A stretch of DNA of 24,516 bases from a virus. Numbering within the stretch: the stretch's first letter is position 1; the number at the start of each line of letters is the position of its first letter. A program made the translations under genes and the position numbers. Under the pieces are notes generated by a model. The model did not search any database, had not been told where the DNA came from, and saw only the letters and a list, made by a program, of their open reading frames with translations. Location: the IMG/VR virus record IMGVR_UViG_3300020472_000159, positions 1 to 24,516 of that record; one strand, 5' to 3'. Shown here in pieces: positions 6,755 through 24,516 of the stretch.

Positions 6755-6898
6755 TTTATATCCTCCACTTGATATGTTATATATAGCACTGTAAAATGGA
6801 AGATTCCCGTATTATATACCAGCCTCTTCGGAGTACATTCGATAAAGCCTCTCTTTTTTTCTAATCTCTAAAATAAGGGAATATTAGAATTATATTTT
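6755..6898 (-). other. AT-rich intergenic region
   Basis: This gap lies between two fibre-like genes. On the minus strand it holds GTGGAGG as ribosome site and GCTATATATAAC at about 6777-6788, a relaxed variant of the WCTATTTAY box. I found no convincing terminator and no coding potential. Confidence 0.35.
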
Positions 6899-8035: not shown

Positions 8036-8053
8036 ATTTTTCCCTCTTCATCA

Positions 8054-8062
8054 ATAAATAGA
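8054..8062 (-). promoter_or_regulatory. WCTATTTAY box ahead of the 6899-8035 gene
   Basis: Minus-strand TCTATTTAT, 18 nt from the start codon, with AAGAGGG as ribosome site between. It lies about 32 nt downstream of the hairpin terminator at 8094-8117. The terminator-then-box order is what a fresh transcription start would look like. Confidence 0.5.
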
Positions 8063-8085
8063 TTCTCCTTGCGTAAACTCTTAAA

Positions 8086-8117
8086 TAAAAAGATGCCCCC
8101 CCACAAGGGGGAGGCAC
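8086..8117 (-). terminator. Rho-independent terminator after the 8153-9733 gene
   Basis: On the minus strand TGCCTCCCCC pairs with GGGGGGGCA around a TTGT loop (one internal mismatch). TCTTTTTATTT follows. It starts about 35 nt after the stop codon at 8153. Stem GC content and U-tract both meet the usual intrinsic-terminator pattern. Confidence 0.85.
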
Positions 8118-8152
8118 CAAAAGGATACTGTAACCCAAACAATAAGTTTAGA

Positions 8153-9733: not shown

Positions 9734-9828
9734 TTAAAAACCCTCCATATTATAAGTTTTATATTTAGGCGAACAGGCGCCATACACCAATCCCCCGAAG
9801 AGTCGTGATACAAGGTGCCCGTCCACTC

Positions 9829-9837
9829 ATAAATAGT
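9829..9837 (-). promoter_or_regulatory. WCTATTTAY box ahead of the 8153-9733 gene
   Basis: Minus-strand ACTATTTAT within the 124-nt gap between two fibre genes, 95 nt upstream of the ATG. It sits in a CAGACTATTTATGAG context. The leader would be longer than at the other copies. No clear terminator separates it from the 9858 gene. Confidence 0.45.
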
Positions 9838-9857
9838 CTGTAGAAAAGTCTGAAACT

Positions 9858-10619
9858 CTAGTAAATGAAGTACTTCGAGATTCCATCACAATAAAGCTGC
9901 ACTGCTGCAAAAGATGAGCCCAAAACAACTGAATTTTGACCATCGATTAAATTGCCCCCTTGAGTATTAACGGTAATCGGCTTGGTTATTCCTTGACCGC
10001 CTTCGTCCTTTACTATAACTGTTTGTCCGCTTTGCATTGCATTAGCCACCGGCATTGTTATTATCACCGATCCAGCTGCTTCGGCAGTATCTACTCCCAC
10101 ATAATAATCACTAGTAGTGATAGTGTAGTCGTCGCTTACGGTTACTCTCTTGTACGATACCGATCCGCTCAACAGGGAGCTGCCAGCAACAGAGAGTTGA
10201 TGATCTGGGGTGGCGTTAGAGCCGATCTGCACGCTGCTCGTTGTAAATGCTTTGGTGGCATTAATTTCTGTGAATATGCCCCCGCCAGAGCCACCACCAC
10301 CGGGCAAATTGGTCAACATACTACCGTCGCCTTGAAAGTAGGAAGCCGAGATACCAATGCTTGCTGTTAATTGTCCAGTGACAGTGAGGATGCTACCATC
10401 GAATGTGAGATTAGTCTCGGACGTGAGAGCGTTAAAATCGCCACCAACATTGGTTACTATGCCATTGTTGACTGCATTGTCCAAACGCGGAACATTAATA
10501 ACAGACGCGCCGTCCGAAGTGCTTAAGTTGCCTGACACCACGTTAGCGATGATAGAACCACTAGCGGGAAGATAATTTTGTGCGGCGGTAAGTGTGCCCG
10601 ATACTGCATTATATGCCAT
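9858..10619 (-). CDS. Fibre-like structural protein (MAYN family)
   Basis: A 253-residue protein. The N-terminus MAYNAVSGTLTAAQNYLPAS matches the style of the 6899 gene. Residues ~75-110 carry NLTFDGSILTVTGQLTAS followed by SYFQGDGSMLTNLPGGGG, a classic phage-fibre motif with a Gly-rich hinge. The C-terminal ~90 residues (DYTITTSDYYVGVDT, IITMPVANAMQSGQTVIVKD, GGNLIDGQNSV, ending ISKYFIY) form a beta domain of the same plan as the C-terminus of the 10643 gene. It lies 23 nt after that gene and probably shares its transcript. A virion-surface role is inferred from these features. Confidence 0.83.
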   Translation of the reverse strand: MAYNAVSGTLTAAQNYLPASGSIIANVVSGNLSTSDGASVINVPRLDNAVNNGIVTNVGGDFNALTSETNLTFDGSILTVTGQLTASIGISASYFQGDGSMLTNLPGGGGSGGGIFTEINATKAFTTSSVQIGSNATPDHQLSVAGSSLLSGSVSYKRVTVSDDYTITTSDYYVGVDTAEAAGSVIITMPVANAMQSGQTVIVKDEGGQGITKPITVNTQGGNLIDGQNSVVLGSSFAAVQLYCDGISKYFIY

Positions 10620-10642
10620 TCATGGAGTCTCCCTAAATATAA

Positions 10643-11326
10643 TTAGAAGACAAACCAATTGGTACCATTTGAATACAAACTAATTGCTGGCATTGTGCCG
10701 GATAATTCATAAGAAGCCGCCCCGTCAATCAGATCTCCCGATCCCGCAGAAGCCGTAATGGTGATGGCACCGGTGCGACCGGTATTCTCATCTTTAAAAA
10801 CATACACTCCGCCAGCTGCAGCGGCAGAGGCGCTATGTAATCGAAAAGTTATATCTCCTCCCGCCGTAATTCCATAAATATAATTTGCCACCGACGAGGT
10901 TTGATTGTTCGCTGAAATGGCTGTGTAGCCGCCGCGGAGTCCTGTGGTGTATGTTTGATCATTTTCTACTGTTAGTGTCGAGGCTGCGCCGGCTTTGCCC
11001 ACATAAAGGCTACCAGTACGAATATGTACATCATCGGTACTATCGCCAAACCTAGTGGAGCCAGTTGTATCAATCTCAGCAATATCTTTAATATGGTAGT
11101 GACTGGCAGACAGAGTACCTGAGACTACGAGAGTTCCAGTCAACACCATCGTATTGGCGGCGAAGTCGCCCGGGTTGGTGGACGAACTATAGTACATCAA
11201 GCTAATGCTACCGGTCGTGTTTCCCGAACCGCTTAAATATTGTATTGAACCTACGGGTCCGTACGCACTACCATCCGCACTTCCCGAATCTCCACAATCT
11301 ATATATGCCCAACCAAACTTAGCCAT
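10643..11326 (-). CDS. Fibre-like structural protein (MAKFGWAY family)
   Basis: A 227-residue protein beginning MAKFGWAYIDCGDSGSADGS. The middle reads GSISLMYYSSSTN, MVLTGTLVVSGTLSASHYHI and DTTGSTRFGDSTDDVHIRTG. This is the strand pattern of proteins I associate with marine phage fibres or decoration. The C-terminal ~90 residues (GGYTAISANNQTSSV, ITFRLHSASAAAAGGVYVFKD, SGDLIDGAASYEL, ending YSNGTNWFVF) share the beta-domain plan of the 9858, 6899 and 8153 products. It follows the 11331 gene after only 4 nt, so the two are almost certainly co-translated. There is no enzymatic signature. Confidence 0.83.
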   Translation of the reverse strand: MAKFGWAYIDCGDSGSADGSAYGPVGSIQYLSGSGNTTGSISLMYYSSSTNPGDFAANTMVLTGTLVVSGTLSASHYHIKDIAEIDTTGSTRFGDSTDDVHIRTGSLYVGKAGAASTLTVENDQTYTTGLRGGYTAISANNQTSSVANYIYGITAGGDITFRLHSASAAAAGGVYVFKDENTGRTGAITITASAGSGDLIDGAASYELSGTMPAISLYSNGTNWFVF

Positions 11327-11790: not shown

Positions 11791-11799
11791 ATAAATAGT
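11791..11799 (-). promoter_or_regulatory. WCTATTTAY box overlapping the end of the bS21 gene
   Basis: Minus-strand ACTATTTAT. It overlaps the TGA of the bS21 gene by one base and lies 31 nt before the start of the 11331-11759 gene. It would start the first fibre-gene transcript. Confidence 0.5.
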
Positions 11800-12047
11800 C
11801 ATCTCTTTTTTCTATTACGCCTTTCTTGTGCTCTAATTAATTTTTGTTTCTCTCTATGTCTGCGTCGTGCTGCTCGTGCTTGCTTTTCTTTCTTAGCTTC
11901 GGAAGGCTTCTTGTGGTACCTCTTGTCCCTTACTTTTTCAACTATTTTCTCTTTTTTGCATTTTTTTATAAATCGACGAATCATTCTTTCGTGATTTCCT
12001 CTACAGCTTTGCGCGGTGACTTTTACGTTTGATGTTTTTCTACCCAT
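11799..12047 (-). CDS. rpsU: Phage-encoded ribosomal protein bS21 homologue
   Basis: An 82-residue, very basic protein. Residues ~18-50 (ERMIRRFIKKCKKEKIVEKV, then RDKRYHKKPSEAKKEK) follow the bS21 pattern of a RRF-K-x-CE/K helix, an E-V-R-x-R-x-Y/F-x-KP turn and a K/R-rich second helix. The C-terminus is a long Lys/Arg helix. In bacteria bS21 binds the small-subunit platform near the anti-Shine-Dalgarno region of 16S rRNA and helps initiation. Phage copies of bS21 are known from pelagiphage-type myoviruses and many metagenomic phages. It lies between head-core genes and fibre genes, 4 nt from the neighbour at 12052, so it would be expressed with late genes. The N-terminus (MGRKTSNVKVTAQSCRGNHE) is somewhat longer than in E. 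coli. An unrelated basic protein is the alternative. Confidence 0.85.
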   Translation of the reverse strand: MGRKTSNVKVTAQSCRGNHERMIRRFIKKCKKEKIVEKVRDKRYHKKPSEAKKEKQARAARRRHREKQKLIRAQERRNRKKR

Positions 12048-12459: not shown

Positions 12460-13068
12460 CTACTCTTCTTCCAAGATCTCATTCAAGAGGCGATTGATTC
12501 TATCGCCCTTAGTAAAGACCTTAGATTCATTTAAATCTTTAACTTCCTTCATCATGAAGGCGCCGGGGGTGGATGGTTCTGAAACCATATCAAAGCAGAT
12601 TAATTGAAAGTCGTCTTCTACGATCGTCTGTCCGCCGGATTCCGATACCGATCCCATTCCTCGGGAAGACACTCCCACCGTTACGCCACCATTTACTAGT
12701 TCTTGTAAAATTTTACCTGATGGAGTGTTGAGGACCTTCATTTTGCCCATTACGTTTTTACCCTCCATCCACATCGCTGTTACCGAATGTGATACATTCT
12801 TTAAATTAATTACTGAATCGTCTGGGTGATCCAATTCGCCAAGGGCGCGCGCTTCTTTTATAAGCTTCTGATAATTCTTCACTTCTCGCTCCATAACTGC
12901 GTGAGGGTACACTCTTCCGTTGCCGTTTTGTGTCTCAGTCATCTGCATGATGCCTGACAAAATCATGCCACCTTCGGAAACGTATCTCTTTTCATCTTCT
13001 GTCAAAAGATCCTGACAAACTCCACCATCGCAAAGGGCATAATACTCTCTTAATAATACTTTGCTCAT
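12460..13068 (-). CDS. 21: Prohead core protease, T4 gp21-like (peptidase U35/S80 type)
   Basis: A serine protease that matures the prohead by cutting scaffold, capsid and internal proteins after (L/I)-x-E. The catalytic elements appear in order: His81 in GELDHP (78-82), Ser135 in VGVSSRGMGS (131-140), and Asp160 in ICFDMVSEPS as probable third member. QNGNGRVYPHAVMEREV (47-63) is the conserved N-terminal substrate-groove block. The 202-residue length is close to T4 gp21 (212). Both ends carry candidate self-cleavage sites, LLRE8 and LLNE197, in keeping with autoprocessing in T4. It follows a membrane-protein gene by 12 nt and belongs to the head-assembly run downstream of portal. Confidence 0.95.
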   Translation of the reverse strand: MSKVLLREYYALCDGGVCQDLLTEDEKRYVSEGGMILSGIMQMTETQNGNGRVYPHAVMEREVKNYQKLIKEARALGELDHPDDSVINLKNVSHSVTAMWMEGKNVMGKMKVLNTPSGKILQELVNGGVTVGVSSRGMGSVSESGGQTIVEDDFQLICFDMVSEPSTPGAFMMKEVKDLNESKVFTKGDRINRLLNEILEEE

Positions 13069-13422: not shown

Positions 13423-13968
13423 TTATTCTCCCGCAGCTATATTGTGAACAGTGTTACCCGTAGAGTTTCCTATTTGTCTATCGGCTAGCCATTGTTTAAT
13501 GACCTCGTCCATATTGGGAATGGGAGTGTTGGGGGCTTCAGATGCCATCTGCTCTACTTCGGGCATTTTTTCTTCTATGAACGCCTCTTCGAGTCGATCA
13601 TCAATTAGCTCTTGAAAACCATCGCTTAAATTAAAGGCTGCCAATACAGGATTGTTGGCAGTTACTTCATCTGGCTTTTGGGCATATATTCGGAAGATCT
13701 TTGTAGCTGCATCGCCGACGCTCTTTAGGGTGCCGGCAAACGGTATCATGTCCTGCAGAAGCGCAGCCACTAGATCTTTGCCAGCATCGCCCATCACGTC
13801 CAGAAGCTGTGCTTCGCGGTCTTTGTCTAGTTTTCCTTGGGCTTTAAGTGCTGCGCCTTGGGTTATGACCTTCAGTTGAGCCCAAGTCATTGGCGCTTTT
13901 TTTGGTTCAATTTTAAGTTCAGAGAGGTAGCTGTCCCAGTTTTCCATTATTAGCTTCATGTGTGTCAC
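13423..13968 (-). CDS. Head-core candidate with ENW N-terminal motif
   Basis: A 181-residue protein. After a GTG start it reads MTHMKLIMENWDSYLSEL, which has the same layout as the MKKLFENWRKHLNE peptide of the genes at 22112 and 23346. It ends in LSE, a likely prohead-protease site. Residues ~50-130 are helical with a hydrophobic stretch (DLVAALLQDMIPFAG). The tail is polar. GGAG at 13977-13980 stands 8 nt from the GTG and 17 nt from the in-frame ATG at 13959, so GTG is favoured. It lies in the portal-to-protease interval, where T4 keeps core genes 67 and 68. A core or internal head protein is the likeliest role, but no homologue is named. Confidence 0.78.
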   Translation of the reverse strand: MTHMKLIMENWDSYLSELKIEPKKAPMTWAQLKVITQGAALKAQGKLDKDREAQLLDVMGDAGKDLVAALLQDMIPFAGTLKSVGDAATKIFRIYAQKPDEVTANNPVLAAFNLSDGFQELIDDRLEEAFIEEKMPEVEQMASEAPNTPIPNMDEVIKQWLADRQIGNSTGNTVHNIAAGE

Positions 13969-14519: not shown

Positions 14520-15339
14520 CTTCAAAAATTTCCTTCACTAATTGTTGGGTCCTCAACACTGTATTAATAACATCTTCATCAGGAGCAGCTCGGCGGTAAG
14601 ACTCTAGTTTGACAATAAGGGTGTTTGTCTTGTTGGACATGGCTTCATCTGATTGTATGATTTCAGATTTAGATGCTTTCCTCAACATCTCACTAATACG
14701 GGCGATCTCTTCATTAAGAAAATTCTTTAATTCTAGTGCGTTATCAGAAAATGAATTTATATAACACGCTAAGAGTGTTCGCTGCTCATCTAAAAGTTGA
14801 TTGTCGTATTTATCATTAAACTTTTTAACCAAAGTTTTGTAGACAACATCATCAATTTCAGCGGTCGGTGGCGGCGAATCCGGGACACCGAGCATACTCT
14901 CTATAATATGAGACTCTAAAATAACTTTATTCTTCGGAGACGTCTTGGCTGAAAACATCTGTGCGATGGTTGCCAGTGTCTTATAGTTTGGAACGTAGTT
15001 CATAAATACTGTGGTGGATATCTCACGATTAATGTCGTTAATGAGAGCTGTCTGTTCCTTGAATAGTTGTGGTGCATCTATGGCTTCTTTTTTTCTTTTA
15101 GCTTCCGATATAATTTGAGATGACATATCGCGATCTCTGACAACTCCCTCATACAAGGAACGATAGCAATCCAAGTCTGCACGCAAGAGCGAATCGGCTG
15201 TGAAGTGTTTTTTAAGTAGCGTGATGATCTTATGGTGGTTTTCTTCGTCGTGTTTCAAAATCGCTAGCGTCCCCTCGCGCAGAAGCGCCTCATAGACAAA
15301 TGCGGTATTTCTTTTTTTATTGTGCTTTGCTTTCATCAT
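14503..15339 (-). CDS. Helical protein next to portal (unassigned, prohead region)
   Basis: A 278-residue, mostly helical protein: MMKAKHNKKRNTAFVYEALL, then long charged helices (e.g. ELKNFLNEEIARISEMLRKA), ending QLVKEIFEDGNRN. The open frame extends to 15396, but the ATG at 15337-15339 has AAGGA at 5-nt spacing and overlaps the portal end by 23 nt, so I start there. No catalytic motif or membrane segment is visible. A LLRE site near residue 21 would be open to the prohead protease. Its place directly after portal corresponds to the T4 gp67/gp68 slot, but it is far larger than those proteins. It may help portal or core assembly; this is inference. Confidence 0.8.
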   Translation of the reverse strand: MMKAKHNKKRNTAFVYEALLREGTLAILKHDEENHHKIITLLKKHFTADSLLRADLDCYRSLYEGVVRDRDMSSQIISEAKRKKEAIDAPQLFKEQTALINDINREISTTVFMNYVPNYKTLATIAQMFSAKTSPKNKVILESHIIESMLGVPDSPPPTAEIDDVVYKTLVKKFNDKYDNQLLDEQRTLLACYINSFSDNALELKNFLNEEIARISEMLRKASKSEIIQSDEAMSNKTNTLIVKLESYRRAAPDEDVINTVLRTQQLVKEIFEDGNRN

Positions 15340-17305
15340 TTTGTTCCTTAGTTGTTTCTTCTTTACTCTGGAGCCCTTCCAGTAAGGTGCGCACACTATC
15401 TCCTATTTCGAACAATTTGGTCTCTTCAGATTGCTCTCTTACACTATAAGTAGATTGCTCCTCCTCGTAAATACCAGTAGCCAAGCCACCCATCTTAGTT
15501 ATCGACCCTAACTCTGAATAACCGGGCATAATATTTCTTATGGTGCTGGAGCTTTTTTCCTTAGAGTGTTTGGATGCGTATGACCTCGATCTAGCGCCTG
15601 CAGAGCGCTTGTCTGTCTTAACGGGAGTGTAGACTTTTCCTTTAGCACCGGGCGTGAGGCGCGGAGCATTTCTAGATCCGGGAGGTACCGCCAAGAGTGG
15701 AGAATCATCACCTCCCCCTTCATCGCCACCAGCGTCAAGGTCAGCATCACCAGCCGGCATCTCTTCCGGGCCACCCAAGTCTAGGTCTCCGCCAAGATCT
15801 CCGCCAAGGTCTCCGCCTAGATCACCACCTAGGGCGCCGGCAGTTTCGCCGGCAGCTGCGGCTTCAGCAACCTGTTGGAGTGACGCGTCGTGCTTGCGAT
15901 CGTAATACATTTCTCTTTGGTTGCGAATGAACTCTTCATGAGACATGCCAAATACATTTTCAGTTACCCAGCGACGAGAGAAATAGCCCTCTGTGGCTGA
16001 GGCGGCAATATCAAACTTCTGCTTCCAGTGTTCAATCTCTTGAAGTTCGGCAATCTTTGACGGATTGTTTAACGACAAGCTAAACGCCAACAAATCATCG
16101 CCGCGGAAGCCGAGCGTATAAAGATGAATAATTCCAATCTTAGTCAACTCTGCAACTATAACTCTCTGCAATCGTTGGATAGTGCGAGAAAATCGGATAT
16201 CTTTTTGTGCCAGAGTGGTCTTATCTTCTTCGGCGCCCTCGCCCATAGTCAAGTATGATTGAGGAATTTTTAGCGCGGAAAAGAGTTTGTCGCGCAGATA
16301 CTTAATATCATCAATGGCTGTAATGTTTTGTGCACCGGCAAGTGACTGAATTTCTGTTTGTGAGCCTGCGCGCACAGGAATGAAATAGTCCTCTTCAATA
16401 CTCATTGGATTGTACCGTAAATCAATTTTACCGTTATCCGGGTTAACAACCGAGTGTCTCTTCAGTTGACTCACGATTTTCTCCATATACTGTTCCACAT
16501 CTTGCGGTGGAATAGAGCCTACATCAATCTTAAACACGCGGCGCTCAGACGAACGAACCACGCGGTAAGCCATCATCGCATCTTCCATCAGTGTAAGTTG
16601 ACGCCAAATACGACGAGCCGGCTCAAGAATAGATGTGCCATATGGTGCGTATTTGTCATTACCGAGAATGCGGAAATGTGCAACTTGCCAGTTTTCAAAC
16701 GTCATACCAGCAGAGTTCCACTGATATTGGATGTAGTTGGGGTTGGTTGAATCTTCACCCTCAAGTCTTTCGATTTCTGCCGGAGGTAATGCGATGACCG
16801 ATTGTATTCCGTACTTGTCGTCGATATCTAAATACAGAAAGAAGTCTCCGTACTTGCACATGGTGCGCGCCCAGCCAAAAAGATTGTATTCGACGTTAAG
16901 GATATTCGAATAGAGAATTGCTAGCACCGCTTTAATCTCTTCATTGGGGCAATCAATGTTTAACATGGGTCGTAGATCAGAATAGGTGGTCATCTCATCA
17001 GCATAGATATCCATAGTAGATGCAATTTCCGGCATGTACTCCATCTGGTCGAAGTCAACATATCTCTCGCTTCGGCGTTGGTTTTGAATGGCGTTGGACG
17101 CAATATTGTCCAAAGGATTGTATACTGATTTCTTAAACTGTTGACCCGACGCTGATTTAAATCGCGACGAGAACTTATCTAGATGTTGTCTTCTGATTCT
17201 GCGGCCGCTCTGAGAGCGGTAGCTTATAATTGGTCCGGAAAACAGACGCGTGAGCGCCTTAAATAAATTTGCTTGGGGGTTTTTAGGGTTTTTGTCTGCT
17301 GGCAT
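15317..17305 (-). CDS. 20: Portal vertex protein, T4 gp20-like
   Basis: A dodecameric ring that nucleates head assembly and forms the DNA channel. Family blocks include SERYVDFDQMEYMPEIASTM (79-98), YADEMTTYSDLRPML (101-115), the clip/stem region LTLMEDAMMAYRVVRSSERR (237-256) and VFKIDVG. They continue with EEDYFIPVRAGSQTEIQSLA (304-323), AGAQNITAIDDIKYLRDKLF (324-342) and ALKIPQSYL (345-353). At 662 residues it is longer than T4 gp20 (524). The extra sequence is a C-terminal tail from about 473. It holds four GGDL repeats (493-508), an acidic Gly-rich stretch, then a basic Ser/Arg segment. It starts 8 nt after the terminase stop and overlaps the next gene. The long low-complexity tail is unusual for a portal and may reach into the head interior. 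Confidence 0.96.
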   Translation of the reverse strand: MPADKNPKNPQANLFKALTRLFSGPIISYRSQSGRRIRRQHLDKFSSRFKSASGQQFKKSVYNPLDNIASNAIQNQRRSERYVDFDQMEYMPEIASTMDIYADEMTTYSDLRPMLNIDCPNEEIKAVLAILYSNILNVEYNLFGWARTMCKYGDFFLYLDIDDKYGIQSVIALPPAEIERLEGEDSTNPNYIQYQWNSAGMTFENWQVAHFRILGNDKYAPYGTSILEPARRIWRQLTLMEDAMMAYRVVRSSERRVFKIDVGSIPPQDVEQYMEKIVSQLKRHSVVNPDNGKIDLRYNPMSIEEDYFIPVRAGSQTEIQSLAGAQNITAIDDIKYLRDKLFSALKIPQSYLTMGEGAEEDKTTLAQKDIRFSRTIQRLQRVIVAELTKIGIIHLYTLGFRGDDLLAFSLSLNNPSKIAELQEIEHWKQKFDIAASATEGYFSRRWVTENVFGMSHEEFIRNQREMYYDRKHDASLQQVAEAAAAGETAGALGGDLGGDLGGDLGGDLDLGGPEEMPAGDADLDAGGDEGGGDDSPLLAVPPGSRNAPRLTPGAKGKVYTPVKTDKRSAGARSRSYASKHSKEKSSSTIRNIMPGYSELGSITKMGGLATGIYEEEQSTYSVREQSEETKLFEIGDSVRTLLEGLQSKEETTKEQNDESKAQ
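15770..15829 (-). repeat. In-frame 12-nt tandem repeat coding GGDL in portal tail
   Basis: Four 12-nt units of GGNGGNGAYYTN code GGDLGGDLGGDLGGDL, followed by a degenerate DLGG. Third-base differences between units show the array is not a very recent expansion. Slippage at this site would change the tail length in steps of four residues. Confidence 0.8.
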
Positions 17306-17313
17306 TTATTTTC

Positions 17314-18897
17314 TCACTTTATAATCCATTTAAATTGGTCATATAGATGTTTGGCATCATTCATTTTATCAAAGATGTTATCTTTTTTGTAGCCTGTTTG
17401 TCCTTTAATCTGTGTGTTCATGGTTGTCTTACTGGTGTAGATTGCTCCAAGGAAAGCTTTTTGATAATTTAAATCTCTGGCGTTAGCTTGTAGGGCGGTG
17501 TCTCTCACCCAACACGCAATGGCTAATGCCATAATTAAATCATCATGATAACCTCCCATGGCTTGCGGCTTTCCGTTCTTCCAAATAAAAGTCTTCATCT
17601 CGTTAATTGTACGAGAGGAATATACTTTAATTAGTTTATTTCTGATAAACTCTTCTAATTTCGCCACTATTAGAGGGCGCGTTTTCATCGTGGTGGTAAA
17701 TCCGGGTACGGCTGATTGACGAATTTCTGCCTGATGTTGTTCGATGTATTCGTGTGTGGACTTGATTGAGTGGTATAAATTTGGATATGCATATTCAAGC
17801 AGCTTGTCTAAGACTGAGTACCCTACGTTGTTGTTTTCAACCACGAGCATGCAGCTGCCGAATTCCCTGCCGGCTTGGTTGAGCATGTTTGCAAACGTGT
17901 CTAAAGTTGGTTTTCCTTGGTATTCTCCCACTACTTCCAGCGTCTCTAGTTTAATAATGTGGAAAGTTGAAAAGTCAGCACCATCACCTCTAGCAACATC
18001 AGCAACCATGAGATAATTGCACGTGGGATCGAATTCTTCCCAAATCCAAAAGTTTCTATCAAAGCCGGTTCTGTGTTTTGGCTCGCAAACATTTGATAGC
18101 AGCCATTCCATACAGTCCGGATCGATGACTGTTTCGCCCGAGGTATTGAAATTGCATGCCAGCTCTTGTGCGATTTGTCTCTTGGACATGTTCCTAGTTT
18201 CTTTCTTGAACCATTCTTCGTCACGATCCGGGTGGACCTGCCATGGGAGAGTGGTTAAGTTAAAGTTATTGGCGCCGGCTTCAGAGTCCATGCATGTTTT
18301 GTGAAACCAGTTACCAACACCATTGGGAGTTGATAGGGCGATACACCGACCACCAGTCGAGAGCGTGGGATATAGTCCTGTCCACAAATCTTCTAGCCCG
18401 TCGATGTGTGCAGCCTCATCCAATACTAAGAGCGACAGTGCTTCTGAACGACCTGCATCGCCTGACGTAGACGCAGCTTTTATAGACGAACCGTTTGATA
18501 ATTCAAAAGAGTTTCTATTATCAACTGAAATACTGGCGATACGCAACCAATCTGGTACGTTCCTCATAATGTTTTTTACTTTCTTGACTAAGTTTCCGGC
18601 TGTCGCGAACTTGGTTGCCATGACAAGAATCGCCTTGTCTCTATGAAACAACATCATCCAGACAATATAGCCGGCAGTAATTGTAGATATACCTAATTGG
18701 CGCGCCTTAAGAATAACGTTAAAGCGATAATCATTAAAATCCTTCAGGAGATCGTCCTGAAAATCATAGGTGTTAAATAAAATTAACCCGTGTAGAGGGT
18801 GAGATATTCTAGCATAATTGTTGAGAAAATATGAAGGGTCGTTTCCACACTTTAATATCTCTTGAACTCTTTGCTTCTTGTCTAATTGGAAACTCAT
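17314..18897 (-). CDS. terL: Terminase large subunit, T4 gp17-like
   Basis: The ATP-driven DNA packaging motor and headful nuclease. The ATPase half has a Q-motif-like region (NTYDFQDDLL, 42-51) and a deviant Walker A at 64-72 (KARQLGIST). There the lysine precedes the loop instead of the usual GK(S/T). Walker B is LLVLDEAA (156-163) and the coupling motif is ALSTPNG (187-193). The RNase-H-like nuclease half shows the acidic triad at D300 (LMVADVARGDGADFS), E354 (LVVENNNVGYS) and D452/D453 (GGYHDDLIMALA). The 527-residue length is somewhat below T4 gp17 (610). The start overlaps the preceding stop as ATGA. The portal gene follows 8 nt downstream. Confidence 0.97.
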   Translation of the reverse strand: MSFQLDKKQRVQEILKCGNDPSYFLNNYARISHPLHGLILFNTYDFQDDLLKDFNDYRFNVILKARQLGISTITAGYIVWMMLFHRDKAILVMATKFATAGNLVKKVKNIMRNVPDWLRIASISVDNRNSFELSNGSSIKAASTSGDAGRSEALSLLVLDEAAHIDGLEDLWTGLYPTLSTGGRCIALSTPNGVGNWFHKTCMDSEAGANNFNLTTLPWQVHPDRDEEWFKKETRNMSKRQIAQELACNFNTSGETVIDPDCMEWLLSNVCEPKHRTGFDRNFWIWEEFDPTCNYLMVADVARGDGADFSTFHIIKLETLEVVGEYQGKPTLDTFANMLNQAGREFGSCMLVVENNNVGYSVLDKLLEYAYPNLYHSIKSTHEYIEQHQAEIRQSAVPGFTTTMKTRPLIVAKLEEFIRNKLIKVYSSRTINEMKTFIWKNGKPQAMGGYHDDLIMALAIACWVRDTALQANARDLNYQKAFLGAIYTSKTTMNTQIKGQTGYKKDNIFDKMNDAKHLYDQFKWIIK

Positions 18898-19592
18898 ACA
18901 TTCTTCAAGGCAACCACAACTTCTTCGCGATTAGCTAAATCGCCTTCACCGTCAAGAACCACTATCTCTTCAAAACCATCTCTCCACGCTGCGTCAACTA
19001 TTTGCGCGTCAGTCATCTCATCAAATCCGTGAGGATCGAGCGCGTTGTACATTTCGTCTTCGCCTCCCATATCATGATAGTGACCCTCTGATATTACTTC
19101 GCGTATAAGCTTCATCAATTCTTCCATCTTGAAGCCTACTTGTGGGCGACCTTCGGCGCCGGGAGTGTAGAGCGTTTCGGGTTCCTCTTCTGCGGGACCC
19201 ATCTCTACGCCGGGGATCTTCTCAAATACTGCCTGAAATAAGTCAGCCACCTCTTCTGGTGGCAAGCCTTGGATCAGATCCATAAGCTGATCTTCCAAAG
19301 GTGGGCCAGCACGATCTTGGAAGCCGCTAACATCTCGCTCTGGAGCGTCATCTGACGGGATGTCCGAAGGTCCAAGGGGCATCGTGTCATCAGCAGATGG
19401 CGCAGGTTCGGGGGTTGGTGGTAACTCGGGGGGATCCGGGATTTCTCGATCGTCATCTACCCAGTCGGGCTTTTCGCCGCCCTTAACCCAAGCAAGAAGA
19501 TCGTCCACTTTGTCCTCGCTAAGTATAATACCTTCTTCGGCGGCATATTCTTCAACAATTATTTTGTAAAGATGTTGGCGACTTATCTGCAT
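18894..19592 (-). CDS. Acidic Pro-rich protein upstream of terminase
   Basis: A 232-residue protein. The N-terminal amphipathic helix (MQISRQHLYKIIVEEYAAEE) has IVE/EEY sites. A Pro/Asp/Glu-rich linker (about 45-90) includes PDPPELPPTPEPAPSADD. A helical middle (LEDQLMDLIQGLPPEEVADL) is followed by a second amphipathic helix (KMEELMKLIREVISEGHYHD). It ends with an acidic domain (AAWRDGFEEIVVLDGEGDLA). The last codon overlaps the terminase start (ATGA). This position is often that of the small terminase subunit, but I see no DNA-binding helix-turn-helix and no gp16-like central coiled coil. It may instead be an internal head protein, because two segments look like capsid-targeting helices (the second reads LIREVISEG). 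Function not established. Confidence 0.75.
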   Translation of the reverse strand: MQISRQHLYKIIVEEYAAEEGIILSEDKVDDLLAWVKGGEKPDWVDDDREIPDPPELPPTPEPAPSADDTMPLGPSDIPSDDAPERDVSGFQDRAGPPLEDQLMDLIQGLPPEEVADLFQAVFEKIPGVEMGPAEEEPETLYTPGAEGRPQVGFKMEELMKLIREVISEGHYHDMGGEDEMYNALDPHGFDEMTDAQIVDAAWRDGFEEIVVLDGEGDLANREEVVVALKNV

Positions 19593-19601
19593 CTTGTTCT
19601 C

Positions 19602-20141
19602 CTATTTCTTAGATCTGGTGTCGTTCTTGGGGCGCTTGCCCTGCCAGCCACCTTGATCCAAGAAAGTCTTCCAGCTGCGATCAACGCGGTCAGTAGATTC
19701 TTGTGCATCATTCATTTCTTCACCAAGACCACCAACTTTATAGTGCTTCTTGGCTTGTACCCAAGTTCTAACACGCGAAGAATTTTGAACCATCACATCG
19801 ACTTCGCCTTCTTCGGTAAGAGTAACTGACTCTCCTGTGATTTTCTTATATTCTTTTTTAAGCCAGCCGGATATATCAGTTAATCTTTGATCTATCTCTT
19901 GTTCAAAGCCGCTAGCGTAAACTTCCTTCAATTGAACTTCTGATTGGTATGTTAGGCACATCATGTTTCCATAAAACTTCACATTAAACCCATCCATGAC
20001 CCTCTGATCAATCAGAGCATCACCCTCTTCTCTTCGTAAAATTCCGTCGTTTGCCGGCTCATAATCTTCGCCGAGGGCGCCGTCATATGAATTTGCGGCG
20101 GCTTGCGCCAAACCTTGGATTATTTCGTAAACTGTAGCCAT
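19602..20141 (-). CDS. Unassigned conserved-type phage protein
   Basis: A 179-residue protein: MATVYEIIQGLAQAAANSYD, then a mixed alpha/beta region (GFNVKFYGNMMCLTYQSEVQ, ISGWLKKEYKKITGESVTL). It ends in basic WVQAKKHYKV and KRPKNDTRSKK segments. I recall the same N-terminal layout in hypothetical proteins upstream of terminase genes in marine T4-like phages. Start and preceding stop overlap by one base (TAATG). No catalytic motif, membrane segment or signal peptide is visible. An ACTATTTAG sequence lies 28 nt upstream inside the preceding gene. Its place before terminase and portal suggests packaging or head work; function unknown. Confidence 0.75.
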   Translation of the reverse strand: MATVYEIIQGLAQAAANSYDGALGEDYEPANDGILRREEGDALIDQRVMDGFNVKFYGNMMCLTYQSEVQLKEVYASGFEQEIDQRLTDISGWLKKEYKKITGESVTLTEEGEVDVMVQNSSRVRTWVQAKKHYKVGGLGEEMNDAQESTDRVDRSWKTFLDQGGWQGKRPKNDTRSKK

Positions 20142-20716
20142 TAATGATCTCCTCTCATTTTCTTATACTCTAAATAGTGTTTAACTGAGGAAAGGTAATC
20201 GGATGCTTTTGTAATTTTAGCTTGAACCCAGCTATCCAATTCTTCTCCATCTTCTATCATTTGCTCTAATTCTGTTGCGTATTCTGCAGTGCGATACAAC
20301 TGAGACTTTGCCATGCGTCCTTCTCCGTCTTCGATTGAGTCTGAAGTACCAGAGGCGAGCGGATCGTCGGGGCTAGGAGAGCCGCATTGTTCACTTACTG
20401 GTTCTTGTGGTGCCTGAGTGGTGCTGGGTACAATTTGTTTTTGCAACATCTTCATTACTCTTTGTAGGGTTGCTTTTTTGTTGTTCAGTTCCACGCCGGG
20501 TAGCTCAGCGAGGTTTAACAAGAATTGATCTATCTGCTGTACTATTCCTCTTTCCAAGTTGGAGAGTTCTGGGTTTGCTTCTTTTCGTTGCTCTTTGCCA
20601 GATGCCGCAAAGCTAGCTCCACCCATTGAGGACGTAGTAATCTTTTGTGGATCTTGTTGCTGTTCTCTTAATACTTCATAAATAAGAGACTCAAGGTTTT
20701 GTGGTGTCAGCTTCAT
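20141..20716 (-). CDS. Helical protein with LRE-type N-terminus
   Basis: A 191-residue protein. The N-terminus MKLTPQNLESLIYEVLREQQ is an amphipathic helix ending in LRE18, a candidate prohead-protease site. A Gln/Ser-rich linker follows, then LERGIVQQIDQFLLNLAELP (helix). The C-terminal block GRMAKSQLYRTAEYATELEQ...WVQAKITKASDYLSSVKHYL (133-184) is a helical domain I have seen repeatedly in marine phage hypothetical proteins. It overlaps the upstream zinc-finger gene by 26 nt. Together with the 19602 gene it forms a coupled pair. An internal virion protein is a reasonable guess; nothing enzymatic is seen. Confidence 0.75.
   Translation of the reverse strand: MKLTPQNLESLIYEVLREQQQDPQKITTSSMGGASFAASGKEQRKEANPELSNLERGIVQQIDQFLLNLAELPGVELNNKKATLQRVMKMLQKQIVPSTTQAPQEPVSEQCGSPSPDDPLASGTSDSIEDGEGRMAKSQLYRTAEYATELEQMIEDGEELDSWVQAKITKASDYLSSVKHYLEYKKMRGDH
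20170..20178 (-). promoter_or_regulatory. Possible WCTATTTAY-like box inside the end of a gene
   Basis: Minus-strand ACTATTTAG, one base off the consensus, 28 nt before the start of the 19602-20141 gene. The distance equals that of the intergenic copies. However, it lies in coding sequence, so chance is hard to exclude. Confidence 0.2.
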
Positions 20717-21089
20717 TGGGGCGCCATCCTTCTGTCCATCTTTCTTCTCTTCCTTCTACGTGTTGAATATAGCATTTGTAACAACAATCGAATTTGATGT
20801 AACAAACGTCGTCCATGGATTTCTTTGGAAAAGCACCACAGACTGAACAATACTTTAGAGATTCTCTATTAAATAGTTTTTTTGACACCTTTATACCATT
20901 TATATCTATTTTCTCGCAATACTCTTCGTTTTTGGATGTTTTTTGATAAAGCTCTTTCATTTGCTTAAGGTATTCTTTTTCTTTTTCTTCATCCCAATTG
21001 GCGCGAGGATTTGCAACAGCTTCGGTGCCATATTTTTTAGCAATAGCTTTTTCAATTGAGGCAATTTGATCTGTGTTTTTATTTTTCAT
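20691..21089 (-). CDS. Zinc-finger protein
   Basis: A 132-residue protein. The N-terminal half is a charged helix (EEKEKEYLKQMKELYQKTSK). The C-terminal half has Cys81-x2-Cys84 (CSVCGAFPKK) and Cys102/Cys103-x2-Cys106 (DCCYKCYIQH), which fit one zinc site of four cysteines. It continues VEGREERWTEGWRPNE. I recall similar proteins encoded near terminase genes of marine T4-like phages. The start overlaps the stop of the upstream signal-peptide gene by 11 nt. The finger could bind nucleic acid or protein. No partner can be named. Confidence 0.78.
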   Translation of the reverse strand: MKNKNTDQIASIEKAIAKKYGTEAVANPRANWDEEKEKEYLKQMKELYQKTSKNEEYCEKIDINGIKVSKKLFNRESLKYCSVCGAFPKKSMDDVCYIKFDCCYKCYIQHVEGREERWTEGWRPNEADTTKP

Positions 21090-21501
21090 CTAAAGCCTTA
21101 TACACTCCGTAGGACCCAGCAGTGCCAATTACAATCCCACCAGCAAAATATAGCCACTTATATCGCGGAGAGGTCTTCTTCAGCGCGGCAGCTAATAAGT
21201 CTATTTCTTTATCCTTTTGAATTATAAACAAATCGTATTCATCTGTTAAGGATTTATGTTTTATTTTTAAACTTTCTATTTCGAACTTGTGGGTTTCTTG
21301 TAATTTTTCTATCTCATAGTCTACTCTTATCTGGCAGGCGTATGCTGCAATGTCGTAGTCGGATAGGATTGTCGATATCGAATGCTCATCAAACAAAACA
21401 CCCTCAAAGGGCGCTGGTTGTTTGTATTCTAGAAAAGTAAACTTTGCCGGCTCAGTGGCATTTGCGGTCAAGGATAACATTAACATTAATTTAAGGAACA
21501 T
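21079..21501 (-). CDS. Signal-peptide, coiled-coil protein with C-terminal membrane segment (spanin-like)
   Basis: A 140-residue protein from ATG 21501. Residues 1-17 (MFLKLMLMLSLTANA) are a signal peptide with an ANA cleavage site. The mature part begins TEPAKFTFLEYKQPAPFEGV, a start typical of small periplasmic phage proteins. A long charged coiled coil follows (about residues 55-110). WLYFAGGIVIGTAGSYGVYK near the C-terminus is a membrane helix. The build recalls unimolecular spanins, but no lipobox cysteine is present. It overlaps the 21491 gene and follows the holin-like gene, so it is likely part of a lysis cassette. The open frame reaches 21513 through a TTG; the ATG with the signal peptide is preferred. 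Confidence 0.72.
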   Translation of the reverse strand: MFLKLMLMLSLTANATEPAKFTFLEYKQPAPFEGVLFDEHSISTILSDYDIAAYACQIRVDYEIEKLQETHKFEIESLKIKHKSLTDEYDLFIIQKDKEIDLLAAALKKTSPRYKWLYFAGGIVIGTAGSYGVYKALDEK

Positions 21502-21874
21502 ACTCGATCCCAAAAGTTTCTTCTATGTCTTTAATCAGTTGTTCTCGATCGCTATTGAATTTGTTTCGATATTTGGTCTTCTTATCTTCTCTTAATTCTT
21601 TGATCATCTGCAGTGAGTCTTCATAGTCTTCTTCGATTGCTGCCAAGGATTCGAGATAGTTCTCCGTTAGGAGGCGCCTTTCCTCTATTTCCCGAGCATG
21701 TATTTCCTTAAGCCCTTCTATTTGAGCTTCGTGGGACTCAGCTTGGGTTTCGTACGCCTTCTGCATTAGTTTGTAGTCGTTTCTGTTTTTAAGGCCCACA
21801 ACGATTAAAAGCGATACGATGAGTATCGCTTTCCAATTCTTTAACGCAAAATCTAATATTCGTTTTTTAATCAT
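21491..21874 (-). CDS. Inner-membrane spanin-like protein (Rz-type layout)
   Basis: A 127-residue protein from ATG 21874 (MIKKRILDFALKNWKAIL); the open frame runs on to a TTG at 21895. Residues ~14-30 (AILIVSLLIVVGL) form an N-terminal membrane anchor with positive residues on the cytoplasmic side. A periplasmic coiled coil fills the rest (AQIEGLKEIHAREIEERRLL, NYLESLAAIEEDYEDSLQMI). This is the topology of i-spanins, which link the inner membrane to an outer-membrane partner in the last lysis step. It overlaps the holin-like gene by 8 nt and the next gene by 11 nt. Assignment is by layout, since Rz proteins share little sequence. Confidence 0.68.
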   Translation of the reverse strand: MIKKRILDFALKNWKAILIVSLLIVVGLKNRNDYKLMQKAYETQAESHEAQIEGLKEIHAREIEERRLLTENYLESLAAIEEDYEDSLQMIKELREDKKTKYRNKFNSDREQLIKDIEETFGIEYVP

Positions 21875-22067
21875 TGTATCCCCGTAATCTAGCAATGCCG
21901 TCGATAACTGTTTGACCTCCGATGTAGATTGCTGAAATGACCACCCAATCTTCGCTAGTCACATGACCTGCAAGAGTTAGTCCTGTTGCGGTTAACCAAA
22001 CCATGAGCTTACGAGAGGTAAGTTTTGCTAGCCATGTATCCATAAATGCTTGTGCTTTAGCCATCAT
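21867..22067 (-). CDS. Holin-like small membrane protein
   Basis: A 66-residue protein (MMAKAQAFMDTWLAKLTSRK). It has two hydrophobic stretches, LMVWLTATGLTLAGHV (about 21-36) and WVVISAIYIGGQTVIDGI (about 41-58), joined by a short turn (TSED). The charged tail reads ARLRGYND. The sequence SRKLMVWLTATGLTLAG...VYLGGQ-like resembles small phage holins. GGAG stands 6 nt from the ATG at 22067. It opens the overlapping run of membrane genes down to 21079. No endolysin is visible in the window, so the lysis role rests on size, topology and neighbours. Confidence 0.7.
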   Translation of the reverse strand: MMAKAQAFMDTWLAKLTSRKLMVWLTATGLTLAGHVTSEDWVVISAIYIGGQTVIDGIARLRGYND

Positions 22068-22111: not shown

Positions 22112-22540
22112 TCAATCATCTTCTTCTATTTTGGATGTGCACATCTCTTCTGCCTCTGCGGCTGATAAGCTATCGGCGCGCTCAGATGCAGGCTTATCTT
22201 TTTGTGCGCATGCCCAACGCCGTTGTTTTTCCGAAGATACTTCGTCAAGCTCATCTTCTCCCTCGGCTGCTGTATCGATTTTTGGTACTGCTTCCATTAC
22301 CGCTTGAAGATCTTGTACCGCTATGTTTTTTACGAATGCGCGGCTTACTTTCTCTTCCAAGCCCAAGTCCATTAAAAAAGCCATTGCGCGCGCTTGTATT
22401 TCTGAATCCATAATGTCTGATGGATTCGTGGGAGGGAATCGCTCTAGGGCGCCCAGACCACCGGTCATACCGCCCATGTTCGAAACTTGCCCATCGCCCT
22501 CATTTAAATGCTTTCGCCAGTTTTCAAACAGTTTTTTCAT
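22112..22540 (-). CDS. Candidate internal head protein with MKKLFENW targeting module
   Basis: A 142-residue protein starting at ATG 22540. The first 14 residues, MKKLFENWRKHLNE, are identical to those of the gene at 23346 and end in LNE, the (L/I)-x-E type of prohead-protease site. A Gly/Met-rich linker (VSNMGGMTGGLGALERFPPT) follows, then a helical part (ARAMAFLMDLGLEEKVSRAF). The C-terminus (VSSEKQRRWACAQKD, LSAAEAEEMC) is a motif I know from other marine phage proteins. The open frame extends to 22597, but that would overlap the previous gene and loses the shared N-terminus. Delivery into the capsid is inferred. Confidence 0.75.
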   Translation of the reverse strand: MKKLFENWRKHLNEGDGQVSNMGGMTGGLGALERFPPTNPSDIMDSEIQARAMAFLMDLGLEEKVSRAFVKNIAVQDLQAVMEAVPKIDTAAEGEDELDEVSSEKQRRWACAQKDKPASERADSLSAAEAEEMCTSKIEEDD

Positions 22541-22575
22541 TTTCAGGAATCTTCCGCTTTGGTAATCTTCATCAT

Positions 22576-22884
22576 CTAATCGCACCCATAATCGCACCCA
22601 AAAGATATGCTATGCGCTTTTTTGAAATCACCTACCGAAGCGGCAATACTTTTTTTGGTGCAAGGTCCATCGTACCAAGCATCAAATAATTCTTTAATTT
22701 GGGCATTTCTAATTTCACTGGGGCGTACGCCTTGCTCAAGCAAAACTTCCCACAAAATTTCACCAACTAGTTCGGAGTCATCTTCCTTCAGCGCCGGCGC
22801 ATCTGGTGCTGGTGGGTTTTCTGTGATATCCTCGTGACTAGTCTTGCTCAGCCATGATTTGATTGTGTCTAATAATCTCTTCAT
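22576..22884 (-). CDS. Small unassigned protein between head-module genes
   Basis: A 102-residue protein (MKRLLDTIKSWLSKTSHEDI). It has a Pro-rich linker (ENPPAPDAPALKEDD), then a helical region (LVGEILWEVLLEQGVRPSEI, AQIKELFDAWYDGPCTKKSI), ending ISFGCDYGCD with two C-terminal cysteines. The N-terminal amphipathic helix has the size of the targeting peptides in its neighbours but lacks an (L/I)-x-E motif at its end. It starts 5 nt after the stop of the 22890 gene. Codon use and spacing fit the run. Function unknown. Confidence 0.7.
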   Translation of the reverse strand: MKRLLDTIKSWLSKTSHEDITENPPAPDAPALKEDDSELVGEILWEVLLEQGVRPSEIRNAQIKELFDAWYDGPCTKKSIAASVGDFKKAHSISFGCDYGCD

Positions 22885-22889
22885 GTTAA

Positions 22890-23300
22890 TTATCTCAACC
22901 TGCTAGCAATCATTTCAAGTTGCCCTTGTAAATTCAAGAGAGCGTTTCTCATTTGTTCGTCTGCATGACTAGCCAAGACAGCTACTTCTCCAGCCAAGTC
23001 AAGCAAAAGATCGCTGGACCCCCCTTGTTCGGCTATGGCAGTGTCGGGCTCGGATTCACCTTCTTCAAAGTACTTGCTTTTTTCTGGGGGATAGCCGGCA
23101 TCTTCGCGTGCACGACGCATGCGCTCTTCTTTCTCGCGGCGGTGTTTACGTGCTTCGTCCGTTTCAGGCTCGACATCTTGCCTGTTTGAGTATCGGGATT
23201 TCCAGTTTCCAGCCGAATCCCACGCTTCGTTAATAGTTTCTGTCTTCTCATTCATAAACCAACGAGGGTCAACTCTTTTTGTGTTTTTTCTTCTAGCCAT
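22890..23300 (-). CDS. Candidate internal head protein with RKNTxR targeting module (copy 1)
   Basis: A 136-residue protein. Residues 1-25 (MARRKNTKRVDPRWFMNEKT...) closely match the start of the gene at 23968 (MAIRKNTRRFDPRYFMDEKT...). They end in INE before Ala, a good prohead-protease site. The remainder differs completely between the two: here a charged helix (EARKHRREKEERMRRAREDA) and a C-terminal amphipathic helix (LLLDLAGEVAVLASHADEQM, ending MIASRLR). The DNA around the start belongs to a 115-nt direct repeat. A shared targeting head on different bodies is how T4 internal proteins are built, so packaging into the capsid is inferred. Confidence 0.75.
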   Translation of the reverse strand: MARRKNTKRVDPRWFMNEKTETINEAWDSAGNWKSRYSNRQDVEPETDEARKHRREKEERMRRAREDAGYPPEKSKYFEEGESEPDTAIAEQGGSSDLLLDLAGEVAVLASHADEQMRNALLNLQGQLEMIASRLR

Positions 23301-23343
23301 TATATTATTCCTTTTAAGTTGCTAATCCATTCATACTTAGTAT
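23229..23343 (-). repeat. 115-nt direct repeat, copy 1 (leader plus first codons)
   Basis: This copy aligns without gaps to 24274-24388 (offset 1045). The best 65 nt (23279-23343) differ at only three positions. It covers the first ~24 codons of the 22890-23300 gene, its ribosome site, and a relic of the 3' end of another gene (ILSMNGLAT then stop). That relic has no function here, because the preceding gene already stopped at 23346. Confidence 0.85.
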
Positions 23344-23345
23344 CA

Positions 23346-23948
23346 TTATAGCGATTTGGCAACCTCATACCAGTTACCTTTTTTGCCGATCTTTTTTGAA
23401 TCAAGAAGGCTCGGATCTTGTTCAATCCCGTCTGCTAATTTCATAAAAAGCTCTTTAAATTCTTCTACATTCTCGGGGGCAACTTCACCTAATGCTTTTT
23501 TGAAGCTGACTCTTCCGGAATACTTGTCCCATTCTTCACCAGCTGCACCTTTGCGCAAATAGTCAGACAAATTCGTACCGCGAAAACCTGTATTTCCTTG
23601 TGCGCGTGCATTAAACCATGCATTGATGTATGATGCAACGTTCCTGATATCACGCGGCAGGTTGTCTTGCGGCTCTGCGGGCGCATCAATATCAGCAACA
23701 GCACGACCGGGTTCGTAATGCCCTTGGGCTCCGCCTTCGTTTAAGTCTTGTTTGGCGCTTTCCATCTCATCCTTGTGGCGCTCAAGCCAACGCTCTGCTT
23801 CTTCATCGGAAAGATCAGTAGTTAAACTCTTTAGTGCTTCCTTAGCACTTAGTCCTGTTTTCTTCATCTTTTTAACGACATGTTGGGCTGAATGTGGTAC
23901 AGCTGCTTCGTTTAAATGCTTTCGCCAATTTTCAAATAGTTTCTTCAT
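23346..23948 (-). CDS. Candidate internal head protein with MKKLFENW targeting module (long form)
   Basis: A 200-residue protein from ATG 23948, beginning MKKLFENWRKHLNEAAVPHS. The first 14 residues equal those of the 22112 gene, with LNE before Ala as likely cleavage site. A small helical segment follows (KKTGLSAKEALKSLTTDLSD), then a second LNE (DLNEGGAQGHYEPG), which may be another cut. The C-terminal domain (about 95-200) is RDIRNVASYINAWFNARAQG...RVSFKKALGEVAPENVEEFK, a folded alpha region. The open frame runs further upstream to 24092 but overlaps the previous gene there. The shared N-terminus fixes the start. No known family; capsid delivery is inferred. Confidence 0.75.
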   Translation of the reverse strand: MKKLFENWRKHLNEAAVPHSAQHVVKKMKKTGLSAKEALKSLTTDLSDEEAERWLERHKDEMESAKQDLNEGGAQGHYEPGRAVADIDAPAEPQDNLPRDIRNVASYINAWFNARAQGNTGFRGTNLSDYLRKGAAGEEWDKYSGRVSFKKALGEVAPENVEEFKELFMKLADGIEQDPSLLDSKKIGKKGNWYEVAKSL

Positions 23949-23967
23949 ATTGTTAATCCATTCATGT

Positions 23968-24345
23968 TTAAATATCTTGATGCTTTCCGTGATGTGGTTT
24001 GCCAAGTTCTGCAAAGATCTGAGAAATCTCAATGAAAGCTTCTTTGCCGGGGCGACCCATATGCTCAAGACCGCTCTCAAGTGAACTCGCAATCTGATCT
24101 ATGCTGAAATATTTCAATGCGTTTTTCATATCTGCGGCAAGTTTTGTCTTATCAACCTCAACATCGTCGTTGTAGAAAGGATCATAAGGCTCTGACATAT
24201 CCGGGTACTTCTCTGGTTCGGGCTCTGGTTCGTAAACGCTTTGGCCCCCGGGGGCGTCGAAGTTAATTGCCTCTTTAATTGTTTCTGTCTTCTCGTCCAT
24301 AAAATAACGAGGATCAAATCTTCTTGTGTTTTTTCTTATAGCCAT
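23968..24345 (-). CDS. Candidate internal head protein with RKNTxR targeting module (copy 2)
   Basis: A 125-residue protein (MAIRKNTRRFDPRYFMDEKT, then ETIKEAINFD). Its N-terminal module matches the 22890 gene at protein and DNA level and ends in IKE before Ala. A Pro/Glu-rich linker follows (YEPEPEPEKYPDMSEPYDPF), then a helical C-terminal part (LAADMKNALKYFSIDQIASS). The region after the module bears no likeness to copy 1. AAAAGGA precedes the ATG. With the 23346 gene it forms a module pair (RKNT type followed by ENW type). The downstream genes 22890 and 22112 repeat this pair with the 102-residue gene inserted between them. Confidence 0.75.
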   Translation of the reverse strand: MAIRKNTRRFDPRYFMDEKTETIKEAINFDAPGGQSVYEPEPEPEKYPDMSEPYDPFYNDDVEVDKTKLAADMKNALKYFSIDQIASSLESGLEHMGRPGKEAFIEISQIFAELGKPHHGKHQDI

Positions 24346-24388
24346 TATATAATTCCTTTTATGTTGCTAATCCATTCATACTTAGTAT
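24274..24388 (-). repeat. 115-nt direct repeat, copy 2 (leader plus first codons)
   Basis: This is the partner of 23229-23343. Here the upstream portion is the genuine 3' end of the gene that enters the window from the right (LIAILSMNGLAT, stop at 24359). It is therefore the likely parent copy, and the other copy carries a displaced piece. Confidence 0.85.
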
Positions 24389-24516
24389 TGCAATCAGACC
24401 GGGCACATTCTTTCTGACATAAACGCCAGAGAAAAGTGTCTCGCATCGACCGCCGACATAAGCGATTGCCGACTCAATATTTTTACTGACTTTTGGATCA
24501 GCTACCATCTCCTCTG
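24359..24516 (-). CDS. C-terminal end of an unidentified protein (cut by window edge)
   Basis: The last 51 residues are visible: EEMVADPKVSKNIESAIAYV, GGRCETLFSGVYVRKNVPGL, IAILSMNGLAT. The segment mixes helix and strand with no motif I recognise. The stop is 13 nt before the ATG of the 23968-24345 gene, with that gene's ribosome site between, so they are probably in one operon. A copy of its last ten codons reappears at about 23315-23343. Function unknown. Confidence 0.65.
   Translation of the reverse strand, partial: EEMVADPKVSKNIESAIAYVGGRCETLFSGVYVRKNVPGLIAILSMNGLAT

Follow-up and report, generated by a model that had tools for sequence, protein, structure and literature searches.

Small proteins of this virus, and of many other uncultured phages, begin with one of several short peptides whose conservation stops sharply at an [LI]-x-E motif and behind which unrelated bodies are exchanged; these peptides are very probably T4-style capsid-targeting propeptides, cut after [LI]-x-E by the gp21 protease, so that the cargo would go with the DNA into the host. 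The window, by which the whole 24.5-kb virus fragment analysed is meant, carries the head genes of a T4-type phage as a module encoded on the minus strand, comprising TerL, the gp23 major capsid protein (1418-3244), a gp21-type prohead protease that is the presumed cutter (12460-13068, phrog_207, E 2.7e-56) and a T4-type gp20 portal protein (15317-17305, PF07230, E 2.6e-79). A scaffold gene is located at 3275-4474. A gp21-type protease and T4-type head genes are present together in the window phage and in its relatives. In the proposed mechanism, the peptides would bind the prohead scaffold core during head assembly and bring the fused protein into the prohead, the protease would free the cargo by cutting after [LI]-x-E, and the freed cargo would remain with the packaged DNA and probably enter the host at infection. 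One phage may possess several unrelated peptides for this same task.

The initial annotation described four small proteins that pair two N-terminal peptides with unrelated bodies, and all four peptides are indeed present, on bodies without similarity to one another. Peptide 1, MKKLFENWRKHLNE, begins at ATG 22540 (next residue G) in a 142-aa protein (22112-22540, minus strand, tag 22499-22540, cut LNE|G) and at ATG 23948 (next residue A) in a 200-aa protein (23349-23948, minus strand, tag 23907-23948, LNE|A), called here the 23346 protein. Peptide 2 begins at 23300 as MARRKNTKRVDPRWFMNEKTETINE|A in a 136-aa protein (22890-23300, minus strand, tag 23226-23300, predicted cut INE|A) and at 24345 as MAIRKNTRRFDPRYFMDEKTETIKE|A in a 125-aa protein (23968-24345, minus strand, tag residues 1-25 at 24271-24345, predicted cut IKE|A). 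Alanine thus follows the predicted cut in three of the four, as had been noted. Both families are real, but the inventory had overlooked a third peptide-1 tagged protein between the portal and gp21 genes (13423-13959, minus strand, MKLIMENWDSYLSE|L), two peptide-3-like starts recognised only by pattern match or resemblance (MQISRQHLYKIIVEEYAAEE at 18894-19592 and MKLTPQNLESLIYEVLRE at 20141-20716, both minus strand), and a fifth gene of the same block (22576-22884, minus strand), which encodes a small protein with another N-terminus (MKRLLDTIKSWLSK...ITE|N). Starts judged by eye to be like that of this fifth protein (MNxLxxLWNxLxSK) come after the array repeat described below in five other loci. 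The gp21-like protease gene, said to adjoin the tagged genes, is actually about 9 kb away, inside the same head-gene module.

Degenerate DNA patterns located peptide 1 (MKxLxENWRxFLxE) at more than 120 loci in IMG/VR and peptide 2 (MARRKNTRRFDPRYFMDEKTxIxKE) at 36 loci. Peptide 3 (MKITKxQLxQIIKEExxxLxE; MKITKTQLKQIIKEEISKVLSE), found at more than 120 loci, was met via relatives of the 23346 protein, the second module of which is fused behind it in locus L191. A single record holds as many as seven peptide-1 genes or nine peptide-3 genes. Chance is excluded as the source of the matches, because the peptide-1 and peptide-3 patterns matched 30 and 57 times, respectively, over 21 large phage records, and the reversed controls not once. 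Among genomes of bacteria and archaea (257 Gb), a stricter peptide-1 pattern matched only five stretches. Peptide-1 genes (L187 and L189) are located on CP070664.1, the chromosome record of a WOR-3 metagenome-assembled genome, and are possibly phage DNA within that assembly. Tblastn of peptides 1 and 2 against cultured-phage records, a search limited by the short queries, gave no match, a peptide-1 query in two copies had just one match, in Microviridae and at chance level, and peptide 3 matched weakly in a single uncultured huge-phage record of 484 kb; the peptide strings tried did not occur in the literature text searched. Codons vary synonymously throughout peptide 1, which indicates that selection acts on the protein.

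Alignment of 131 tagged proteins showed MKLLxENWRxFLxE to be conserved, and nothing beyond residue 14. A first count of the predicted cut site (147/172) was partly biased, as Glu at position 14 was forced by the pattern that had supplied many of the loci; with a search pattern that does not require this residue, [LIVM]xE stands at positions 12-14 in 86 of 101 peptide-1 proteins, ten others gain one residue and retain the motif shifted by one, and five are without it. Overall, the motif is retained in 96 of the 101 (95%); of the residues in the nearby body, 9% are Glu. The site is also found behind peptide 2, where the pattern does not force it (27/31, versus a null of 0.13), and behind peptide 3 (148/187 or 79%, versus a null of 0.19), the null being body windows of equal length, which contain such a site in 13-19% of cases; about 20% of peptide-3 proteins are without a clear site near the tag. 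In 18 phages, cultured ones of Flavobacterium and Microcystis among them, an [LIV]-x-E close to residue 61 of gp23 never varies (LLRE|N in the window), in agreement with the 65-residue propeptide of T4, which makes it plausible that these phages have a protease of the expected specificity.

Peptide 1, alone among the three, is clearly an amphipathic helix by hydrophobic moment, and a tubulin gene precedes the array of tagged genes, as might be expected if the peptides directed their proteins to the membrane, the nucleoid, a replication compartment or a tubulin filament, with [LI]-x-E serving as a helix cap. Such a role is quite improbable, however, given that the motif moves with the end of peptide 1 when a residue is gained, that three dissimilar peptides have the same [LI]-x-E ending, that joints between cargos with no tag bear it too, and that the tags track gp21.

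By their bodies, the 423 tagged proteins form 273 clusters, of which seven cover two or three peptides, and 63 pairs of proteins are homologous across peptides (E<1e-5). For example, a peptide-1 protein (L041) and a peptide-2 protein (L148) are 69% identical, beginning a few residues past the tag, and in L088 and L326 peptide 3 carries a body 62% identical to that of the 22112 protein. Behind its tag, the 22112 protein has two modules, E (22241-22498, minus strand, ending LDE|) and F (22115-22240, minus strand, starting VSSEKQRRWACAQKDK), and the latter, its last 44 aa from the internal LDE, is 98% identical to a stand-alone peptide-3 cargo in L319. Likewise, module B of the 23346 protein (23736-23906, minus strand, ending DLNE|G) is on peptide 3 in L125 and L134 (86-93% identical), and module C (23349-23735, minus strand) is on peptide 3 in L191 and straight on peptide 1 in L192. 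The predicted fold of module C is all-helical at moderate confidence (pLDDT 73), with no match in PDB. Other proteins (L194, L197 and L198) are strings of modules joined at MNE, LDE, LNE or LEE, and 18 of 29 non-redundant internal junctions are at [LIVM]xE versus 17.8% expected (binomial p 1.5e-7). Cargo is traded between peptides at the cut site itself, and some cargo genes encode strings of modules that the protease would take apart. Three peptide-3 proteins (L289, L319 and L330) have a second, internal peptide-3 tag ahead of another cargo, which suggests fused tag-cargo-tag-cargo genes.

The two peptide-2 genes of the window have 120 nt of DNA in common (23224-23343 and 24269-24388, 89% identity), consisting of 43 nt upstream and codons 1-26 and stopping just past the predicted cut, and the two peptide-1 genes of the block have 44 nt in common (89% identity). 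Such similarity upstream of and within the tags would also be left by ordinary paralogy, in which one ancestral gene was duplicated and the body diverged past recognition, the start being the slowest part to change. This account is scarcely credible: divergence cannot place the same body, at 60-98% identity, behind unrelated peptides, the cargos come from unrelated enzyme families, and simple gene duplication is contradicted by the cross-peptide cargo pairs. The initial proposal that bodies vary behind a constant peptide is borne out across many uncultured phages, and its idea of cargo loading by interchangeable heads is supported by homologous bodies on different peptides and by the presence of gp21 in nearly all large tagged records.

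Few of the cargos are recognised by Pfam; those that are include Nudix, GNAT, DUF192, RNase_T, M23, Amidase_2, zeta toxin, 2H and 5'-nucleotidase domains. One tagged Nudix cargo also matches the portal-fused Nudix family phrog_15528, in line with a published survey (PMC9503650). Cargos with 'YHYT/YHAT' motifs, suspected by eye to be ADP-ribosyltransferases, found no support as such in Pfam, PHROGs or a fold search; the candidate family (L018) has no Pfam or PHROG match, and its low-confidence model (pLDDT 58) has no fold match. Tags on replication or tail machinery, which would have spoken against head cargo, were not seen among 131 cargo representatives scanned, two of which are peptidoglycan-hydrolase domain proteins (M23 and Amidase_2). 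The latter could instead act in lysis, and they count against the capsid-targeting reading, as does the position of the array, which neighbours lysis-type genes and is some 9 kb distant from gp21. Clear amphipathicity in peptide 1 alone and the peptide-3 proteins that are without a clear site weigh against it too.

In relatives of the window phage, tagged genes of all three classes are preceded by a 24-nt repeat (TAAGYATGAATGGATTAGCAACAT), which is present in 58 of 442 upstream stretches versus about 1.2 expected. Of 103 distinct copies, 82 stand before a clearly tagged gene, and approximately ten others before a variant of these tags or before an additional start codon placed one residue upstream; in large records the repeat occurs just a few times. 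The tubulin/FtsZ-family gene that heads the array ends in this sequence, and the MNGLAT-stop frame is retained in 97 of 99 copies. In the window, the C-terminal end of this tubulin/FtsZ-like gene, cut by the window end (24359-24516, minus strand), contains the parent copy (24358-24384, minus strand, ...ILSMNGLAT stop), and further copies precede the 23346 gene (23944-23970, minus strand) and the 22890 gene (23313-23339, minus strand). A full-length relative (L041:2015-3175) has the GGGGTGS motif and matches PF00091 above cutoff (E 6.5e-8). It is an observation in its own right that a tubulin/FtsZ-family gene directly precedes the tagged array in a T4-like phage lineage.

In these relatives the tagged genes make up a cassette array behind the tubulin gene, each with a copy of the tubulin end ahead of it, and the repeat may be either a translation-coupling element or the marker of a point of cassette addition. 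Short common DNA between variable genes could serve recombination, as in the mobile regulatory cassettes and modular shuffling of T4-type phages; unlike those cassettes, the repeat here comes from the 3' end of a tubulin gene and is placed before tagged cargo genes. It is quite possible, if not quite probable, that the whole constitutes an open cargo-loading platform, in which independent tags draw on a pool of modules swapped at protease sites, strings of modules are cut in the head, and a cassette array grows with the tubulin 3'-end copy as the acquisition site for injected effectors.

Of 38 tag-bearing records of at least 40 kb, 19 contain the gene for gp21, as do 15 of 20 peptide-3 records; at lengths of at least 120 kb these figures rise to 10 of 11 and 11 of 12, respectively, or 21 of 23 together. 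The rate among phage records generally, a set not matched to the tagged records for habitat or size, is 2,491 of 50,697. The gene for gp23 is found in 16 of the 38 records of at least 40 kb. The records are fragments, so a missing gp21 or gp23 is weak evidence.

In T4, gp67 and gp68 are encoded between the portal and gp21 genes, and the third peptide-1 protein of the window occupies just this position. The tagged proteins might therefore be parts of the prohead core (scaffold), like T4 gp22, gp67 and gp68, that gp21 cuts and that are largely removed rather than injected; many cargos are small, acidic and without known family, and several module joints would undergo cutting. We consider this rather unlikely, because the cargo is too diverse and patchy for assembly parts, as its clustering indicates, with domains such as Nudix, GNAT, RNase_T and zeta toxin, and because a peptide-1 tag is within 4 kb of gp21 in no more than 2 of the 19 records. 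The same count led us to reject a tagged gene as a constant neighbour of gp21, in the position of gp67/68.

Capsid targeting with subsequent injection has its closest precedent in the internal proteins of T4. The capsid targeting sequence is the sole common part of the T-even internal proteins, and gp21 cleaves after L/I-X-E (PMC3012670, PMC9026906); the first 10 residues of IPIII are enough for packaging (PMC9026906). Comparison of the T4 sequences showed that IPII and IPIII have an identical start, MKTYQEFIAE|A, and unrelated bodies. As with IPI, IPII and IPIII, the proteins described here have a short N-terminal peptide on unrelated small bodies, an L/I-x-E|A end, a gp21-type protease in the phage and sets of cargo that differ from phage to phage (PMC3012670, PMC9026906). 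The plan of the peptides resembles that of MKTYQEFIAE (MK, hydrophobic and acidic residues, L/I-x-E), but the sequences are too short and differ too widely for a call of homology. In contrast to T4, where the tags are of 10 and 19 residues, those here are of about 14, 25 and 22 residues with other sequences, and there are several unrelated tag families per genome, hundreds of cargos, swapping of cargo, module strings and a repeat-bounded cassette array, packaging here being inferred from T4.

Nudix domains among the tagged cargos recall T4 Alt and the other head-packaged NAD/ADP-ribose enzymes (ART, Nudix) of myoviruses, but delivery here would use a cleavable tag instead of a portal or MuF fusion. 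Head proteins of SPN3US and phiKZ also lose N-terminal propeptides to the prohead protease, which cuts behind a short motif with a final E (PMC10052503), but there the motif is A-x-E, most propeptides are long (111-254 residues) and a tag that is shared and interchangeable has not been described. Cultured relatives possess versions of their own: gp003, gp076 and gp077 of the Flavobacterium phage immuto have a common MENFDLKKFLVEN...[LI]xE and mostly unrelated bodies, and three related proteins of Mel-JY01 bear MIKLKSLLKE. Thus, the principle is that of T4, whereas, within the reach of the searches, the novelty lies in the scale, the interchangeable tags, the strings of modules and the cassette array.

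The tags provide a sequence handle on proteins of uncultured marine phages that are probably head-borne and active in the first minutes of infection. Of the T4 internal proteins, IPI blocks the GmrSD restriction enzyme and IPIII is required on E. coli strain ECOR17 (PMC9391042). As T4 internal proteins oppose host defences, the tag lists yield hundreds of candidate injected effectors, most without a known family, and offer a direct route to testing them. The interchangeable tags and the junctions at cut sites also suggest how phages gain cargo without redesigning it.

Several other genes of the window, all on the minus strand, deserve mention. Close to gp21 is a homolog of ribosomal protein S21 (11799-12047, phrog_21469, E 1.3e-4), and Microcystis phage Mel-JY01 has an annotated RpsU at the equivalent position. 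A series of Gly/Ser/Thr/Asn-rich proteins with C-terminal regions that look alike (5723-11326) are probably fibre proteins of the tail or the head. Three small putative membrane proteins (21079-22067) separate the tagged array from the head genes; one is holin-like, and the other two have a hydrophobic N-terminal stretch and a coiled-coil-like region. The trio looks like a lysis cassette, and in L263 and L309 the array repeat is followed by small membrane proteins similar to these.
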